Assembly: GCF_047495875.1 (NCBI RefSeq)
Contig: NC_092465.1
Location: 9,783,160-9,847,159, forward strand
Direction: 5' to 3'
Source of the DNA: Pithys albifrons albifrons
Lineage: Eukaryota > Chordata > Aves > Passeriformes > Thamnophilidae
DNA length: 64,000 bases
Part shown: positions 14,364-57,700 of the stretch, in pieces
Position numbering within the stretch: the stretch's first letter is position 1
How the letters are laid out: each line of letters opens with the position of its first letter
Position numbers and translations under genes: made by a program
The notes under the pieces: generated by a model
Databases searched by the model: none
What the model was told of the DNA's origin: nothing
The model's input: the letters and a program-made list of their open reading frames with translations, nothing else

Positions 14364-17300
14364 CTACATGTGCTCTGGGTGGTTCTGCAGGCACATGATG
14401 AAATCCTGGATCGATCGACCCTCATAGCAGATCTTGTAGACAGTTGTAAATAATGGAAACCTAAAAGAAACATGTAGCAATGAAAATAATTATTAAAGTT
14501 CATATATGTATTTTCATGCCATTTAAAAGGAAAAAAATTGTTACATGGAAAGTGGAAACATTTTATCTCTAGTTGCAATATAATTTTAACTTGGAATTGC
14601 CTTTACTGGAAGACTACATAGGACAATGACGAGGAGCTAGGAGGAAATCTTGGGAGCCATAGCAGAGAAAAGCTGTCTTGGAGACAAAATTCCTATCTAG
14701 TATTTCTTATTTAAAAACAATCTTGAATTGCATATCCTCTTTTTCCTGCTGTGTGCAAAATGGATATATTATTTGCAATCATTACCAGTATCTAAAGGAC
14801 TAAAAAGAATGAAAATATGTTAATGATTTTTTTGCCTGGCTTAGAAGATTCTTTTCCTTTTAAAAGATGTCTTGGTCATTATGTGGTAAAAAGTGAGTCC
14901 ACTGAATGACTTGGAGCTGATCATGTAACTAAGTGCAATTATAGGATAATTATGGGATCAAGTTGAGATTTAAAGTTCACATTCTGTTAAAATGAGCTTC
15001 CCTTTTCTCTCTCATTTTTGAAAGATAAAACTACTTGAATGTTCTGTGTCTGTTACTATTGTAATAGGTTGGGGTTTTTTTAAGTATTCATTTAGCTGTG
15101 TTTGACCCCTCAGGACTGCTAATGCATGGGAGGGAATACGATGGAGAGAAGTTTAGCTTTTCTGTTGTGTAAGCTGAGACAAAGGTTTCAAGTTACAAAT
15201 AATATTACATCATCCCAAACAATTAGAGCACTTTTTGTCTCAGCAATATTTGTGGTACTAAAGCACTGCAGACATATTACCTTTTAAGGCATGTAAAAAA
15301 ATCTGATTAGGAGTATGCTCCCAAATTTTGTACTGAGATAATCAAGGTTTGCACTGAGAGCAGGACTGCTGCAAGCTGCAGTGGTGACACTGAGAACAAG
15401 AAACCCTTTGATCATAGATGGAACCCACAGATCATATCTGCAGGCTGACTGTGTATGGCTTTCAGTCTTGCTTAGGGGGTGAGGATGTCTGGGAGGATCC
15501 TCTGCATTATTATTTCTTTTGTTTCCTATGTTCACTTAAGAGATGGACTCGATGATCCTTGTAGGTCCCTTCCAACTTGGAATATTCTGTGATTGTTTTC
15601 CCTGCCATTCTAGTTTATGATCTCACATTTCTCTTGTCTTCTGTTACACACTACAATATCCCCTGAACCCACTCTATGTCTGTGACTTGTTTCTTCTAAT
15701 GCTGCTCATTCTTCATCCTATTCAACCGACCATGGCAATGAGTTGGCCAAGGCTCTAATGGTGGCCCAAGATGCAGAAGTAGCTGTTGCAGAAATGAACA
15801 AGATAGGTAAACACAAGTATTTCTAAGAAGGCCACAAATCACTTGTAATTTGCTGTTGATTCAGTTGTTTTTTTAAATCAAAGCACTTACTTATCAAGCA
15901 TATTTTTCTGTTTCAGAATCTTGTAGACTTCAGCTGAGGTCTGAGGACCTTGCAGCTTTTGTCCATTCAGCATCTCATTTTCCAGTTCCTCAATGGACTA
16001 GAAGAGAGAAGACTGATTACTTGGATCAGAGGGGATACTGCTGTGATACCAGCAGCTATCAAGAAAGTAAACAGCTAATGATGCCTTTGTAAAATACAGA
16101 AGGATTTCTTCATGTGTTAGTGTAAAATATTTCAAAATCTTCCTTACTTTGCCTGTGCGAGCAAAAGCTTCTGCTACTTTTCTGTTGCGTCCCCCATAGC
16201 AGGTAGTGATCAGATCAGCGACCCCACAGCTTTCCAAAAAAGTGGCTATTGACACTGGTCCCTTGCAGAACATCTTGGCAAAGGCCACCATTTCCATAAG
16301 GCCCAAGCGTATAACTGCTGCCTTGGTATTATCGCCGAAGCTCAGTCCATCGCAGAATCCAGCTCCCACTGCCACAATATTCTACAAAAATAAGAAGGAA
16401 GGAAAGAGGCAAGGTTTGCACTAAGCTCTAAGAAAACCCCACAACTGTCTTCATCAGAACAAGGTTCAATTGTAAGAGGTCACGAGTGTATCTTATGAAG
16501 AAAGGAGTCAGATAGCATTCAACCAAAGTCACTGGACTTCCAAAAGATTTTAATAAAGTATCTGCTGTTATTCCCATGGGCAAAAATGAAAGCACCTTGT
16601 TTTATACACTGATATTGCAATCACATAGCAGTATGCAAGTAATGTTTTGGTTTTCTGCTAGTTCCAAGTTAGGACTCACTGACCTTTCTATTTAACTATT
16701 TAAAATATCTCACACAGAGTCGTGCCTTTCTAGATTTTCTCTGTTCATCTCTGATTTGAGCAGGCATGAGTTCAATGTAGATGCTACAGTAGATCAAATT
16801 TTGGGCTTGCCTACAAAAATCATCAGTAGAATTGCCCTTTTCTACAGCTCTTAATGTATTTTTCAGGATCCTAAACACTTTTACAACCCCTCTCTATTGT
16901 TCTGCACCTCTCCCTTCCCACCTTCCAATTCCAAGTTCCTAAATAAGTCTCTAAATAAGTGTACTTCAAGGACCAATTATTTCCTGAGCCATAATCCCCA
17001 CTCCTCCATGGAAGGGTGAATTATTGAAGTACAAATGATTGAATGTATAAAAAAGTAGAAAGGATCACAGTTTGAAGTCCCTGTCAGCACATGCAGAAGC
17101 AAACTCCAAGTCTCACTGAACTGCCCCCTCATCGGAAACTTTGTGATTTTGGTATCATTTCTGATCTGATCTAACCTGGGATTTTGATGGGCATTGCTGA
17201 GTGCCCCAGAGATGTGCTGCCAAGACGGAGCCTTGCTTCTGATGCAAATTTTCTAGCAGGTTAGTATTTGAACCATGGAAACGAGTATTAGTGGTGCTGC

Positions 17301-48700: not shown

Positions 48701-51700
48701 AGGTAGCAGATTGCCCAAAACTGCCAAGATGTTCGTCCATCAGTTTTTGCCTTGTCTCTGTTATGTCAGTGCTGTTCAATGGGCAGAGCAGCTTTGAGCT
48801 CACTGCTTGAGCTTTCTGAAACCAGACTTAAGGTGAAAGTTTTGAGTCTTGTAACAATAATATGTGAAACTGTGCCTTACGTTGTGCTGATGTAAACTGG
48901 TCATGTAAATGGTAGCAAAGGTTCAGGCAAGAATCGTTTGCCAGAGGTATTAACTGGGTAGTTCAGACCTTTTGAGTTGCCTGTTTTTTGTATGCTCCAG
49001 TTCTAAAATGTTGGCTAAAACTGTAGTTATTTTTTCCAGTGATATCATTGCAGAAAAATCTGCAGGGTTGGCTACTGGCTCTTGGGTCCACCTTCAGTTC
49101 TGTTCTGCTGACGCAAATCCACAAATAAATTGTATGTGAGTGGAGTTCTTGCTGACTTGAGGAGTTCATCTATGTGTGAGACAAATTGCTTAGCTGAATC
49201 TTGCTGCAATTTTTTCCAGGCAGCTGTATTGTGAGAGCTAAAGAGCTCTGTAAATTATGAAGTAGTTAAATAATGAGTTTTACAGTTGTCCAGTGAGACA
49301 GTGTTTAACTACTTATTATTTAAATATTATCTGTTTTCTTTTTTCCCCTTGCTATCCTGTAAAAGCATTACATTTGTATATAATTGACCATTAATGCACA
49401 AAAGAGGAGAGTCAAATGCAAGTTTAGTTAAGATCATTAAAAAAAACCAAAAACCCTGTAAGTTTCATTTAACATTCCCTTTGAGATGGGTATTGGTAGA
49501 ACTTGAGGTGCAAACACAACTGCTGTGTTAATAGCAGGGGTTGGGGAGTCTGGGTCATGGGAGAGCCCCTTTATCCTTTGGTAGGAAGCCTGGGCTGTGC
49601 CATGCTGGGCTCGTGGACAGCTGATGGCTCTGCTGCATTCTGTCTTCCTGACAAGCCTGCAGTGCCCTTCATTGCGTTTCTGTTCTCCCAGGGATTTACA
49701 GGAGTTTGTGTTAAGATCAGTTTTTATATCTAACGAGGATGTGTTTGTTGCTGGCACATTTGCAGCCAAGCGGTGCTCTGAAGCATCCCCAGGGTCTAGT
49801 GTTGATGTTCTTGTGATAGTGTTGGACCTCTTTTCCTTGCACTTGTTCTTGGTTTCTAAATTTATAATTGAATAGTCAAACACATGAGCTGAAGAGCAGG
49901 AGCTTTGCTGCCACTTAACGGTTCACTGTAGGGCACTGCTGACGAGTTGCACAGCAAGGGTAGTTTTCTTTCTTCCAAAAGCTGTTTGGAAAAGCAGAGG
50001 TAATTTATTGATGTAGGTACTCTGTAAGGAACTGATGCTTCTGCCTTACCTCGTTGGGTGTGGTGGGGAACCTGCTCTTGCACCATCGAGCTGTGGGTCT
50101 GCAGTGTGCTTAACTTAGTAGTGGTTTCTTGGGAGCAAGTGATCTTTGCAGTTGCAGAAGTATGCCCAAAGTGTCTATTGCTGACATAGTTGTTTGGGGT
50201 TTTTTTCTCCTTTTTATTCTCCCCTACACTTCCCTTCTGTGTAGGGAAAAGGAGAATCAGTGCATTGTAGACAGCACTTTGCAGTGCTCAGTGAGGAAGA
50301 AGTAAAGCTGTTGCCAAAAATGGGCCTGTGTGGACATGGGGATGAACAAGTTCAGTGAAATAGGTTACTGCTTTTTCCAAAATGTAGGGTCAGAATTACT
50401 CACTGGTTTGCACTCTTACAATCCCAATTTCTTTCTTTTCTTTTCTTTGTGCTTTGCTAGCTTTTAAGTTGAAGGTGGTGCCTTTCACCAGGGTTTTACA
50501 TTTTGCTGTGAGCTCCGTAGAAAGGAGCATCTTCCCTCAGCCAGGGTCCGAAGGCATTGTGATAACAGTGATGGCGGCAGCTCTGGAGGCTGGATCCCCC
50601 TTCAAGAGCCCTCCCTGACATCTGCGTGTGCTCCAGACTCCTGGCCATCCTTCATGCTGGAAGCAAATCCACAGATACTCAACTGCCACTTGAACTCAGG
50701 CCTTATGCAAGTCTGTGGGGAAGCCTTTGGCTGCTGCCTTTGCTCTTCAGGCAGCTGTTGGCTCTTCAGGGACTTGGCTGCTCAAAGTATCCCACGTGGT
50801 GGTGTCTTGTTCCCAGCAAAATTAAGATCATCTGAAGGGTAGTCTTGGAACTATAATCACTTTCCAGATGGGTGTAATTTTGTGCCACTGCTTGCAGTGG
50901 TTTGTTTGTGTGGGGCTTTCAGGGAGACCTACATATGAGGGGGGGCGGTCCCATGATGTAAAGGAGAGCACTCTGGACTCTGAATCCCAAGGACCTTAGT
51001 TTGAGTCTCAGTGGGACCGTCCCCTGGCAGTAAATGCCTCCTTGCCATCCCATCCCGTCAGATCTCGGATGCTCAGCAGGGCCAGCCCCGATCAGTACCG
51101 GGTGCTGTGACAGTCCCGAGGACTTCACTGTCACTGTCCAAGCTCACTCGGCTGTGGCAGATGGACCTTAGGACTGAAACGGTGGGGTCAGTTCTGTGCA
51201 TGCTGTGCCTCACCTAACACATCCACTGTGCAAGCTGGAAGGGCACGTGGGGAGAGCCCTTCCCAAACCTGTGTTCGTGAAGCCTGGCCATACATACACA
51301 TATGAGGGGTATGAAAAAAGTGTGGAGTATCCTTCTGCATTACTGTTTCTTCTCAGAGAAAATGTTGGCCCAGCACGTGTCAGGTGTGGGCCTGAGTGTC
51401 TTGGCAGAAGCTTCTGAAAGACGTCATTGTGGGAGTTCTGTTCCTCAGTATCTGTTCAAGGCTTGGGTGCTGCTCGTAAACAGGATACAGGGGAATTGGG
51501 CCTGTCACTATCTTGTTTCTCCCCCAGGACAAGAGACCACCCTGCAAGGCACTGACAGCTGCTACAACATAAGAGTCATGCTAGAAAAGGACAAATAAAA
51601 CTGGAAAAGGATAGATAAGCTAACAATGATCCTTTGTGAATCTTTTATTCCTGTTGTATTTACTAAACGTGCAGATATGTAGAAATCTGGCTTGTGGCAA

Positions 51701-54700: not shown

Positions 54701-57700
54701 AAATCTGTGATGTGTCGCTGTATTAAAATGATAGTACAATTCTGAAAATGAAGGTGAAAATTCATTTTCTGAGAATACATAATGGTGATCAGAAGCTTGG
54801 AAGATCTGAAATATGTTCAGTGTTGGCTGATTGCTTTTCTCTCTTTTGATAGCGATCACATGGAAAATATTTATGGCTACTTGATGAAATACACCAATCT
54901 CGTCACTGGTTGGCAATATCGGTAAGCCTTTTATGGTGCTTTTCAGTAGTGTTGGTCTTTGCAGCATCTAAATGAACAGGTTTCAGATTTTTTTGAATAG
55001 TACTTGGATTTCCTTATTTCTATTAGGCAAACTTTATGCAAGAGTGTTATGCTTTTATCTATAGATTAAGCTAAAGTGTACATAAATAGTATTGGAAGTA
55101 GGAAGCAGTTAACTCATTTGATGACTGCAGCTAAAGCTTTTATGTATGAAAAGCAAGTACAGCATTAACTTTTTTTTTCTCCTTTTCCATTAAAAAATAC
55201 TGTCTTTGTGTTTTCTGCTGAGTCTTCAGCTCTATGCCAAATTGCACCATCATTAAAAAAATAAAATTAAAGACCTCTTTACTGTAAATTCAAACTCAAG
55301 CAAGCTTTTCCCTTTAGTTCCCCAGGATGTCTGTCTCTCCTGCAATGACTTGATTATTCATGTTGGGTGAAATTCTCTGGTCAGGCTTCCTGTTTGATGC
55401 AACCAAACTAATATTGGAGAGATGTGTTCTTAGCACACCACACTGGCCAATTGCCTGACTCAAGTCATTAATCCCAATGCCATCTGTGCCAGCTTGTAAT
55501 GAAGTATTGACTTCTCCCAGTACCACCACCCCCATGTTAAAGGAGAAGGAGCAGGTTTTATTTAGTGTATTTGCTTTGTTACCAATGCAGGTTTTTTGTG
55601 TTAAACAACGATGCTGGCCTGCTGGAGTACTTTGTGAATGAGCAGTCAAGACATCTGAAGCCCAGGGGTACCCTGCAGCTGGCTGGGGCTGTCATTTCCC
55701 CCAGTGATGAGGACTCTCACACCTTCACAGTCAATGCTGCCAGTGGGGAGCAGTATAAACTCAGAGGTAGGACGTGTGTTCTTGAGCAGGGGATTCTTCC
55801 ACTAGAGGACAGTCCTGGCTCTCACCTGTGGCTGCTTGGCTGCCTGGCCCAGGGAACAGAACTTGTTTGGCAGACTCTGCTGCAATGGGAATTATGTGCA
55901 AAGCTTTCATCCTGCTCTTCTGTTAGAAATGATCTGTCTTTATGGGAAGTTCTGTAATGTCTGCACTTCATGACCTTCAGAAGACCACAAACTTCCTATG
56001 TAGAATGGAGTTTAATTTCCATATATAGTGTCCTTCAACTGTACTGATTCAAAGTTATCTAAAGCACTGTAGGTAACAGCACTGTGTGGATGCTTGCAGA
56101 GATCTGCATTATTCCTAATGCTCAGTTTGTTAACCAGCTTGTGGTGGTTATAAAAGCCCATTTTTGATTTTGTAGGCTGCAGAAATCTGGGCTAATAACT
56201 TGTAGCATTTGTTTACTGTAATTTTTAATTCTTTGCTGTAATTTTCTAATTCAGCGTACCCTACTCTCATTTCAGGAAAATGTTTCATGTTGTTGGATTA
56301 CAGCATATGTGAGGGGAGTTAGTTTGTTGATTTTTTTGAAATTAATTCTGTAACAAATGACAAGAAAGAAACAGTATATATTATTGATACTGAACTTGTT
56401 TTAATATTATGACATGTGGGAAGGTTTTAGATTAAAAAAAATTACTTTGCACTGTTAAAATCGAGTGTTTCAAAGAATTTTTAAAGTCTTTTTTGCCCCT
56501 ACTTTGAAATGTCTTCATTAACATAATCCTTTTTGTTTGCTTTTATCAGCTACTGATGCTAAAGAACGGCAGCACTGGGTTAGCAGGCTGCAGATCTGCA
56601 CACAACATCACACTGAAGCCATTGGAAAGGTATGACTGATGTTTTCATATGCAAAAGTAATTTAGGCTGGTAGAAGTAGTTGCAAATACAACTGTCCTGT
56701 TGTCTAAGACAAATACCACAGAAGGGCGTTTGGTTGGGCTTGAAATTTATATCAAAGAGAATTTTTCTAGTAATAGATGACTTGTAGTAGAATTATGCTT
56801 TAGGAATGAAACAGTGAAATCCATTGGCCTCTGAAGAGCTGAGTGGTCCTCTCTGAGCTGGTGTTTGAACAGGGGGTGGAGATGAAAGATGAAGGTATTA
56901 GCCCAGTATTTTTCCAGTGGTTTTGCATTTTTTTAATGGAGGAGGAAACAGGACTTCATATTGTTAAAGCCTTTCCATTTTGGGACCTTTACTTTTTTTT
57001 TTTAACCTTTACTTTTCTTGTATAAACCACTTGACAGCCCACAACTAAATTTAGGATGAATTCTTGTGTTTGAGAAGCAAGTCCTCAATTCTATACCTGA
57101 GTACTGTTGCTAACCAACACTGTGATGGTTGCAAACATAACTGTACTTTATAGAGCCTCCTGATTGCCATAACACCCGTTCTGATACCTGAAAAAAAGCT
57201 TTTTTTTAAGTTACAGCCAACATCTTGTAGCTGGCTTTGTTGTGACAGATAAGTTCAATTATTAGTTCTAAACAAAATTCCATTCTCTTAAATGTCAGCT
57301 CTACCCTTGCAGGATCTGTTAGGAGTCAATTTCTGGTACTGTTGCAGATCAAGGACTAATTTTCAAGTCAGAGAAGTGATACTTATTGATCAATTTCATT
57401 TCACAGATTGTTCATAATTAGATTATAAAACAGGGCAACTGGCTGCAGACACTACTAAACATTTAGCAGTTGCTACTAATACGTTATTAGGGCTTTGTCA
57501 TCTGTCCTTGCTCTTTAAAAAATTAGGAATTAAACTGTTCTGCTGTATCTTTCACATTAGAGTATTTGTTGATTATTAGGATTAATTGTAAATGTTTCTC
57601 AATATGCTTATTTATTCACTAGAACAACCCTCCTCTGAAATCTCGCAGCTTCTCTCTTGCATCCCAAGGAAGCACCAACTCTCCTGGTGTGCAAAGAAGA

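Follow-up and report, generated by a model that had tools for sequence, protein, structure and literature searches.

The 64,000-nucleotide (nt) window analysed here, from Pithys albifrons albifrons (NC_092465.1, positions 9,783,160 to 9,847,159), contains at positions 50,931 to 51,309 an element in which a tRNA-Gln-like head stands in front of a 5S rRNA-like segment. How did two heads of RNA polymerase III (pol III) origin come to be stacked on one element, and which long interspersed element (LINE) mobilizes it? The element is a non-autonomous retroposon, a short interspersed element (SINE) of a multi-thousand-copy family, hereafter the composite. Very probably, a SINE with a 5S head (5S-SINE), built from a LINE of the RTE clade, gained a tRNA-Gln head at its 5′ end, lost box C of the 5S part and switched its type of pol III promoter. 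Four structural states exist in this one genome: the LINE, the 5S-SINE, a form with tRNA and full 5S, and the composite. The promoter change of a SINE is usually guessed from end products; as three SINE head states coexist in this genome, a tree can test in which order the events came, and transcription assays what each of them changed.

Copy number and signs of retroposition

The source genome (1.14 Gb, 53 contigs) was searched with the sequence 50943-51297. Among 5395 first-look candidates, 40 were scored and gave 41 matches, of which 40 were near full length at 90-100% identity (window copy included) and the last was an inverted 46-nt piece. A 31-nt pattern spanning the deletion in the 5S part, allowing up to two mismatches, was found 1069 + 1063 = 2132 times genome-wide, and the reversed control 0 times. 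This pattern excludes the tRNA part, so 5′-truncated copies are counted too, and all copy numbers are to be read as first-look candidates or pattern counts. No further copy of the element was found within the 64-kb window. The initial annotation had proposed either a SINE family or a one-off chimera formed by template switching. Chimeras of the latter type are generally known from LINE activity, but the many copies of identical structure and the junction matches establish the family and refute the single event, to which we give practically no credence. The family provides an abundant marker set for phylogeny.

Signs of retroposition were looked for in an alignment of 40 copies (the 39 best relatives plus the window copy). 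The pair of ACATATGAGGGG enclosing the window element is the sole direct-repeat family of at least 12 nt reported within 50800-51450. A flank duplication abutting the element (longest match, 7-13 nt) was present in 31 of the 40 copies, window included; at L015 and L045 the duplication matches the tail itself, leaving 29 duplications independent of the tail. When the longest flank match was taken at any position, 22/40 copies reached at least 10 nt, against 4/400 mismatched flank pairs. The start of the duplication fits the (ATAC)n tail for at least 3 nt in 15/31 copies (13/29 without L015 and L045) compared with 5.8% at random positions of the flanks. Annealing of the target to the tail would produce such a fit. 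At L028 the element's own first 46 nt lie inverted upstream of the full copy (L028:1001-1046), inside the target duplication, which is a sign of twin priming.

The mean non-CpG distance to the consensus (Kimura two-parameter) was 3.4% for the 40 copies and 5.5% for the window copy; with polymorphic diagnostic positions excluded, it was 1.6% and 3.7%, respectively. Bird DNA accumulates about 2e-9 substitutions per site and year, and at this rate the ages would be roughly 8 My for the mean of the 40 copies and 18 My for the window copy. The age of the copies was not related to how many LINE-like letters they have (Spearman -0.02). Tidy subfamilies by diagnostic letters were also tried and rejected, the letters being mosaic.

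The tRNA-Gln head and the shortened 5S segment

The Rfam tRNA model matched exactly the span of the head given in Table 1, with 33.2 bits (gathering score 29), and ARAGORN called no tRNA gene on the window element. Local alignment to tRNA-Gln(CTG) scored 62.5 against a maximum of 28 among 1000 dinucleotide shuffles, and alignment to tRNA-Glu scored 13, at noise (shuffle mean 15.7). Both boxes are intact in the family consensus (A box TGGTGTAAAGG, B box GTTCGAGTC); a strict A box was found in 32/40 copies and a strict B box likewise in 32/40, and the window copy has neither. In a single-sequence fold of consensus positions 1-84, GGGGC before the tRNA part pairs with GTCCCC after it and lengthens the acceptor stem. 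As an idea only, such an extended stem might make it harder for tRNA-processing enzymes to cut off the tRNA part.

The 5S part of the window copy scored 46.5 in local alignment, against a shuffle maximum of 30 (1000 dinucleotide shuffles), and that of the family consensus 61.5 with slightly different gap costs; a rise from single copy to consensus is what real ancestry predicts. The Rfam 5S model missed the 5S segment of the window copy even with the threshold relaxed to E<=1, the probable reason being the absence of 26 internal nt. These 26 nt lie between two TAC repeats, include box C, and are absent in 40/40 composite copies. A further gap of 6 nt is variable: by aligned length 21/40 copies lack these nt, 17/40 have them and 2/40 are in between, and by exact letters the same 40 composites divide into 18 without, 13 with and 9 neither. 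A functioning 5S promoter in the composite was rejected, as box C is gone in all 40 copies. The shortened 5S arm forms a hairpin in a single-sequence fold of the consensus, and by inspection the substitutions of the SINE in this arm strengthen it. A pattern for the deleted 5S gave 0 matches in collections of viral contigs and genome contigs.

The succession read by the initial annotation, of a tRNA-Gln-like head, a 5S part, a body and an ATAC tail between identical 12-bp duplications, is therefore confirmed, with the coordinates of the duplications exact. Its 5S segment stands as to presence and is revised in extent, since the 5S-like sequence starts at 51026, ahead of the strict match, at the point where the sister 5S-SINE begins. 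It had also placed the tRNA ahead of the 5S part, and the Rfam match and the alignment agree. AmnSINE1 has 5S and tRNA in one head, the 5S first, and a Deu core; the composite likewise holds both parts in one head, but in the opposite order. MEG-TR of fruit bats is also a hybrid tRNA/5S SINE, mammalian and probably L1-mobilised.

The probable partner LINE

A BovB-type reverse transcriptase (RT) query revealed an RTE-clade LINE in the source genome. Of 5348 first-look candidates 130 were scored, and the best 26 of the 234 matches had 32-35% identity over about 300 amino acids (aa). At least eight of the listed loci, for example the source of L088, have open frames of 1089-1140 aa in which the matched stretch is free of stops. 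One open frame, of 1102 aa as it stands, encodes endonuclease and RT domains. The LINE comprises about 790 nt ahead of the first in-frame ATG, an open frame of 3.3 kb, and a 3′ untranslated region (UTR) of about 35 nt.

Six LINE 3′ ends were fetched, 94-97% identical among themselves, and 6/6 have 45-51 nt in common with the 3′ end of the SINE (78-85%, E 5e-6 to 7e-10), the homology starting at the last codons and stop of the LINE. The SINE body matches the 5′ ends of the LINE in 4/4 copies over 130-131 nt (85-89%, E 1e-37 to 7e-46). Between the SINE and the remaining fetched LINE stretches there was no convincing match. Consequently the body, first described as unique, consists of 131 nt of RTE 5′ UTR and about 45 nt of RTE 3′ end. 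The suggestion of an RTE-like partner and of a tail not of CR1 type is supported: the tail is RTE-derived, with (ATAC)n. CR1 as partner was rejected; comparison of nine RT loci from an RVT_1 search with the SINE gave a best E of 4.9, and a CR1-like repeat present in several SINE flanks terminates in ATTCTATG.

By inspection, the LINE 3′ UTR can form the hairpin CTTCG-TTCG-CGAAG, which is weaker in the composite consensus. No covariation supported a fold of the 131-nt piece (0/41 pairs with double changes, 5 sequences), and an Rfam search of the LINE 5′ UTR (L084-L087) for a ribozyme or other known RNA revealed nothing at E<=1. Among the 120 listed of 1141 LINE protein hits, the top row by identity (76%) and most other rows were unnamed; the named relatives were from amphioxus (up to 73%), sea urchin (70%), carp (69%), and shrimps and another crustacean (62-65%). 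Ten stretches of viral contigs matched in a search for RTE relatives, none of which was confirmed.

Table 1. Parts of the composite SINE in the window
Feature	Position	Strand	Basis
Target-site duplication, 5′ copy, ACATATGAGGGG	50931..50942	+	direct-repeat search
Leader GGGC	50943..50946	+	family consensus, single-sequence fold
Head from tRNA-Gln(CTG)	50947..51019	+	Rfam tRNA model, local alignment, box search
Linker TCCCCT between tRNA part and 5S part	51020..51025	+	alignment
5S-rRNA-derived segment without 26 nt covering box C	51026..51108	+	alignments, comparison with sister 5S-SINE
Break of the 26-nt deletion, within TAC	about 51096-51098	+	alignment
RTE LINE 5′ UTR piece, 131 nt	51113..51243	+	family consensus 85-89% to 4/4 LINE copies
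RTE LINE 3′ end, last open-frame codons and stop to end of 3′ UTR	51246..51289	+	consensus 78-85% to 6/6 LINE copies
Tail ATACATAC, (ATAC)n in family	51290..51297	+	alignment
Target-site duplication, 3′ copy, ACATATGAGGGG	51298..51309	+	direct-repeat search

The sister 5S-SINE and loci with tRNA and full 5S

An Rfam search of five loci gave a 63-bit 5S match adjoining the SINE copy L024, and so a second SINE was found. This 5S-SINE has the same RTE body and a full 5S head to which no tRNA is joined, and two further copies flank L019 and L044. Used as query, it gave 4570 first-look candidates, overlapping those of the composite; 40 were scored, and 39 others matched at 89-92% over lengths that leave no space for the 26-nt deletion. 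Eighteen copies were examined (16 fetched, L024 and L019). Box C is kept in 18/18, and a joined tRNA in the same orientation was found in 0/18, with scores of 13-17 compared with 12-17 for four random flanks and 158 for a composite copy. Eleven of the 18 start with GCAGTT[AC]AA, and a duplication of at least 9 nt near the start, counted without shuffle control, was present in 11/18.

A query with the tRNA joined to the full 5S gave 4575 candidates, of which 40 were scored and 4 were contiguous matches of 223-229 bp at 87-93%. Each of these loci (L105-L108) reads tRNA, 5S including the box C region, and RTE body. A fifth tRNA-5S head occurs at L092, where the fetched stretch ends before box C. 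The tRNA/5S joint is at the same GGCAGTT in all five. At one marker site in the 5S part, C was found in 34/34 readable composites (40 tried) and in 5/5 tRNA-5S sequences, and A in 15/16 readable 5S-SINE copies (18 tried), the aligned 5S rRNA also having A. The C common to the tRNA-bearing sequences, against A in the 5S-SINE, points to one capture event.

The reverse order, in which an element with tRNA and 5S came first and the 5S-SINE arose by loss of the tRNA, for example through transcripts from the 5S promoter, has to be weighed here. It would agree with the 11/18 5S-SINE copies that start exactly at the end of the tRNA part, which is also the expected start site of a transcript made from a 5S promoter. 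Yet it is the 5S-SINE that has the 5S-rRNA-like A, the tRNA-bearing copies having the derived C, and the 5S-SINE is more diverged from its own consensus (non-CpG 4.8% versus 3.4% for the composite, the samples and distance measures being different). We consider the reverse order improbable.

Proposed route to the composite and alternatives

For the route from 5S-SINE to composite we propose the following steps. Deletion of the interior of an RTE LINE would have given the bipartite tail, which may then have acquired a 5S-rRNA head to form the 5S-SINE with a type 1 promoter. Onto its 5′ end a tRNA-Gln would have been joined exactly, probably by a template switch at the end of complementary DNA synthesis. 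Once a tRNA promoter was present, box C may have become dispensable, and the 26-nt deletion between the two TAC repeats would have removed it and left the tRNA promoter in charge. Judging from the sequence, the tRNA-Gln head with its A and B boxes would now serve pol III as a type 2 promoter for the element, and the RT of the RTE-clade LINE would insert it through target-primed reverse transcription, as the duplications and the tail suggest. For the complete chain, in which transcription by pol III passed from the 5S (type 1) to the tRNA (type 2) promoter by way of the 5S-SINE, tRNA addition in front of an intact 5S head and then box C loss, followed by thousands of copies and accompanied by a partner RTE with long open frames, we see roughly even chances.

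Several observations weigh against so simple a route. The likeness of SINE and LINE at the 3′ end is limited to 78-85% over 45-51 nt, and the tail microsatellites differ, being (ATG)n in the LINE, (CA)n in the consensus of the 5S-SINE and (ATAC)n in the composite. The composite copies were chosen by likeness to the window copy and not at random, and a clear abutting duplication is absent in 9/40. The joint of 5S and body GTGACAGTC occurs in 38/40 composites, in 6/18 5S-SINEs and in 1/4 loci with tRNA and full 5S. GGATTAG, with an extra A, is present in 11/18 5S-SINEs and 3/4 loci with tRNA and full 5S and in 0/40 composites, of which 32 have GGTTAG and 8 neither. The 6 nt that are missing from just some of the composites are already absent at L105 and L106 and still present at L107 and L108. 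Of the five tRNA-5S sequences, three lie head-to-head with another SINE. None of the loci by itself makes a clean ancestor, and the route is not a simple line.

These markers are mosaic at a finer scale too. Judged by the tRNA variant (CCCAAGGACC) and by the letters of the middle of the 5S part, the locus closest to the composite is L108. In the 5′ UTR piece, nine columns are informative, where the composite is unlike all four LINE copies. At these the 5S-SINE L024 is closest to the composite in body letters (8/9), L044 has the composite letter at 5, and L019 agrees with the LINE at 5 columns and with the composite at 2. The mosaic was likely caused by template switching between SINE RNAs or by gene conversion, so that recombination among the SINE kinds probably contributed. 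With such markers, the head states themselves are shown and their exact order is inferred.

The loci with tRNA and full 5S might accordingly be a side branch, or recombinants of composite and 5S-SINE, in which case the order of tRNA first and box C loss afterwards would not be established. Besides the mosaic markers, this reading draws on the small number of such loci (just 4 among the 40 scored candidates) and on the head-to-head arrangement: at L105, L106 and L092 a 5S-SINE and the tRNA/5S SINE adjoin by their 5′ ends, with differing spacers of about 5-40 bp between them. Target preference, a palindromic dimer and segmental copies are possible causes of these pairs. Against it, L108 unites a full 5S with the tRNA variant of the composite and with an ATAC tail, and the stretch read there contains no other SINE. 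Had a 5S-SINE lost box C while still lacking a tRNA, it would presumably have been promoterless. We hold the side branch to be unlikely and prefer tRNA gain before box C loss.

An independent origin of the 5S-SINE and the composite from the same LINE was also considered. The text of Suh 2016 (PMC4844689) describes SINE heads that arose in parallel on tails of AviRTE, which gives a precedent, and the few composite letters of L019 would fit. But the two kinds have the same 5S part, the same joint and the same LINE junction, and the counts at L024 and L044 look like a graded series within one family. Two separate origins thus seem very improbable compared with descent of the composite from a 5S-SINE.

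Comparison with known SINEs and RTEs

The bipartite-tail architecture is already known. As far as the text of Suh 2016 (PMC4844689) goes, five bird SINEs or potential SINEs have RTE bipartite tails (ManaSINE1, GymnSINE, BuceSINE, ManaSINE2 and MeloSINE). Their tails join pieces of the 5′ UTR and 3′ UTR of AviRTE, and their heads are tRNA-Glu, 5S, 28S or GC-rich, that is, RNA-derived in 3/5 and GC-rich of unknown origin in 2/5. The 5S-headed SINE of this design is from antbirds, and a tRNA-headed one is from manakins and flycatchers. For AviRTE the same text gives a 5′ UTR of about 800 bp, an open reading frame of about 3.2 kb and a 3′ UTR of about 40 bp, an anatomy that the LINE found here fits, by description only. 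Intact AviRTE copies were not found in the assemblies of that paper, in contrast with the at least eight listed loci with frames of at least 1089 aa here.

What the composite has in common with the AviRTE SINEs described there is a bipartite tail taken from both UTRs of an RTE of the same genome. What differs, by description only, is the head, tRNA-Gln plus 5S without box C in place of the single heads given in that text. It is unlike GymnSINE in having a tRNA head in place of a 5S-derived promoter head, with box C gone in 40/40, and unlike ManaSINE1 in the tRNA itself, the Gln alignment scoring far above the tRNA-Glu one (62.5 and 13, shuffle mean 15.7). The sister 5S-SINE is like GymnSINE by kind, again by description. 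Independent families have each kept such a 5′ UTR piece (Suh 2016), which suggests that it may function in recognition or stability.

The family could already have been described, as GymnSINE, ManaSINE1 or another deposited bird repeat, with the window coming from that lineage. The 5S-headed SINE of antbirds and the tRNA-headed one of manakins and flycatchers in the text of Suh 2016 (PMC4844689) make this conceivable, but that text gives single heads, none of tRNA plus 5S, and the head here is Gln, with Glu at noise. No bird SINE with tRNA-Gln and 5S was found in the literature searched, outside which lay Repbase, the supplements of Suh 2016 and most subscription papers. Prior description is a possibility that we take seriously but rather doubt.

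Changes of head are known from other SINEs. PittSINE/TguSINE1 of birds has a changed tRNA head, which the text of Suh 2017 (PMC5729268) explains by template switching, the explanation that we favour for the composite. Its tail is of CR1 with the octamer ATTCTRTG, unlike the RTE-derived (ATAC)n tail here, and its new head replaced the old one, whereas that of the composite stands in front of the 5S head. In Helicoverpa, HaSE1 and HaSE3 are tRNA-headed and 5S-headed SINEs with a common body and tail in one genome and an RTE partner (text of PMC3272025), as are the SINE kinds found here; their heads were swapped, with the 5S boxes A, IE and C retained, whereas in the composite the heads are stacked and box C is absent. 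More generally, the text of a paper on hagfish SINEs (PMC7245038) states that bipartite non-autonomous RTEs acquire RNA heads, mostly tRNA and some 5S.

Other features of the window and genome

Open frames of the window, 15998-16381 on the minus strand and 55541-55957 on the plus strand, match the C-terminal domain of NAD glycerol-3-phosphate dehydrogenase and weakly, below the Pfam cut-off, a PH domain.

A search of the genome for RVT_1 (11650 candidates, 150 scored) revealed retroviral pol as well as a LINE, presumably CR1-like by its motifs, whose open frame measures 957 aa. Dozens of the 150 scored RT matches belong to this LINE, many with equal score, which suggests a very recent burst. 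Matches to retroviral-type pol with long open frames were many, and a good share of them is located on contig C40.

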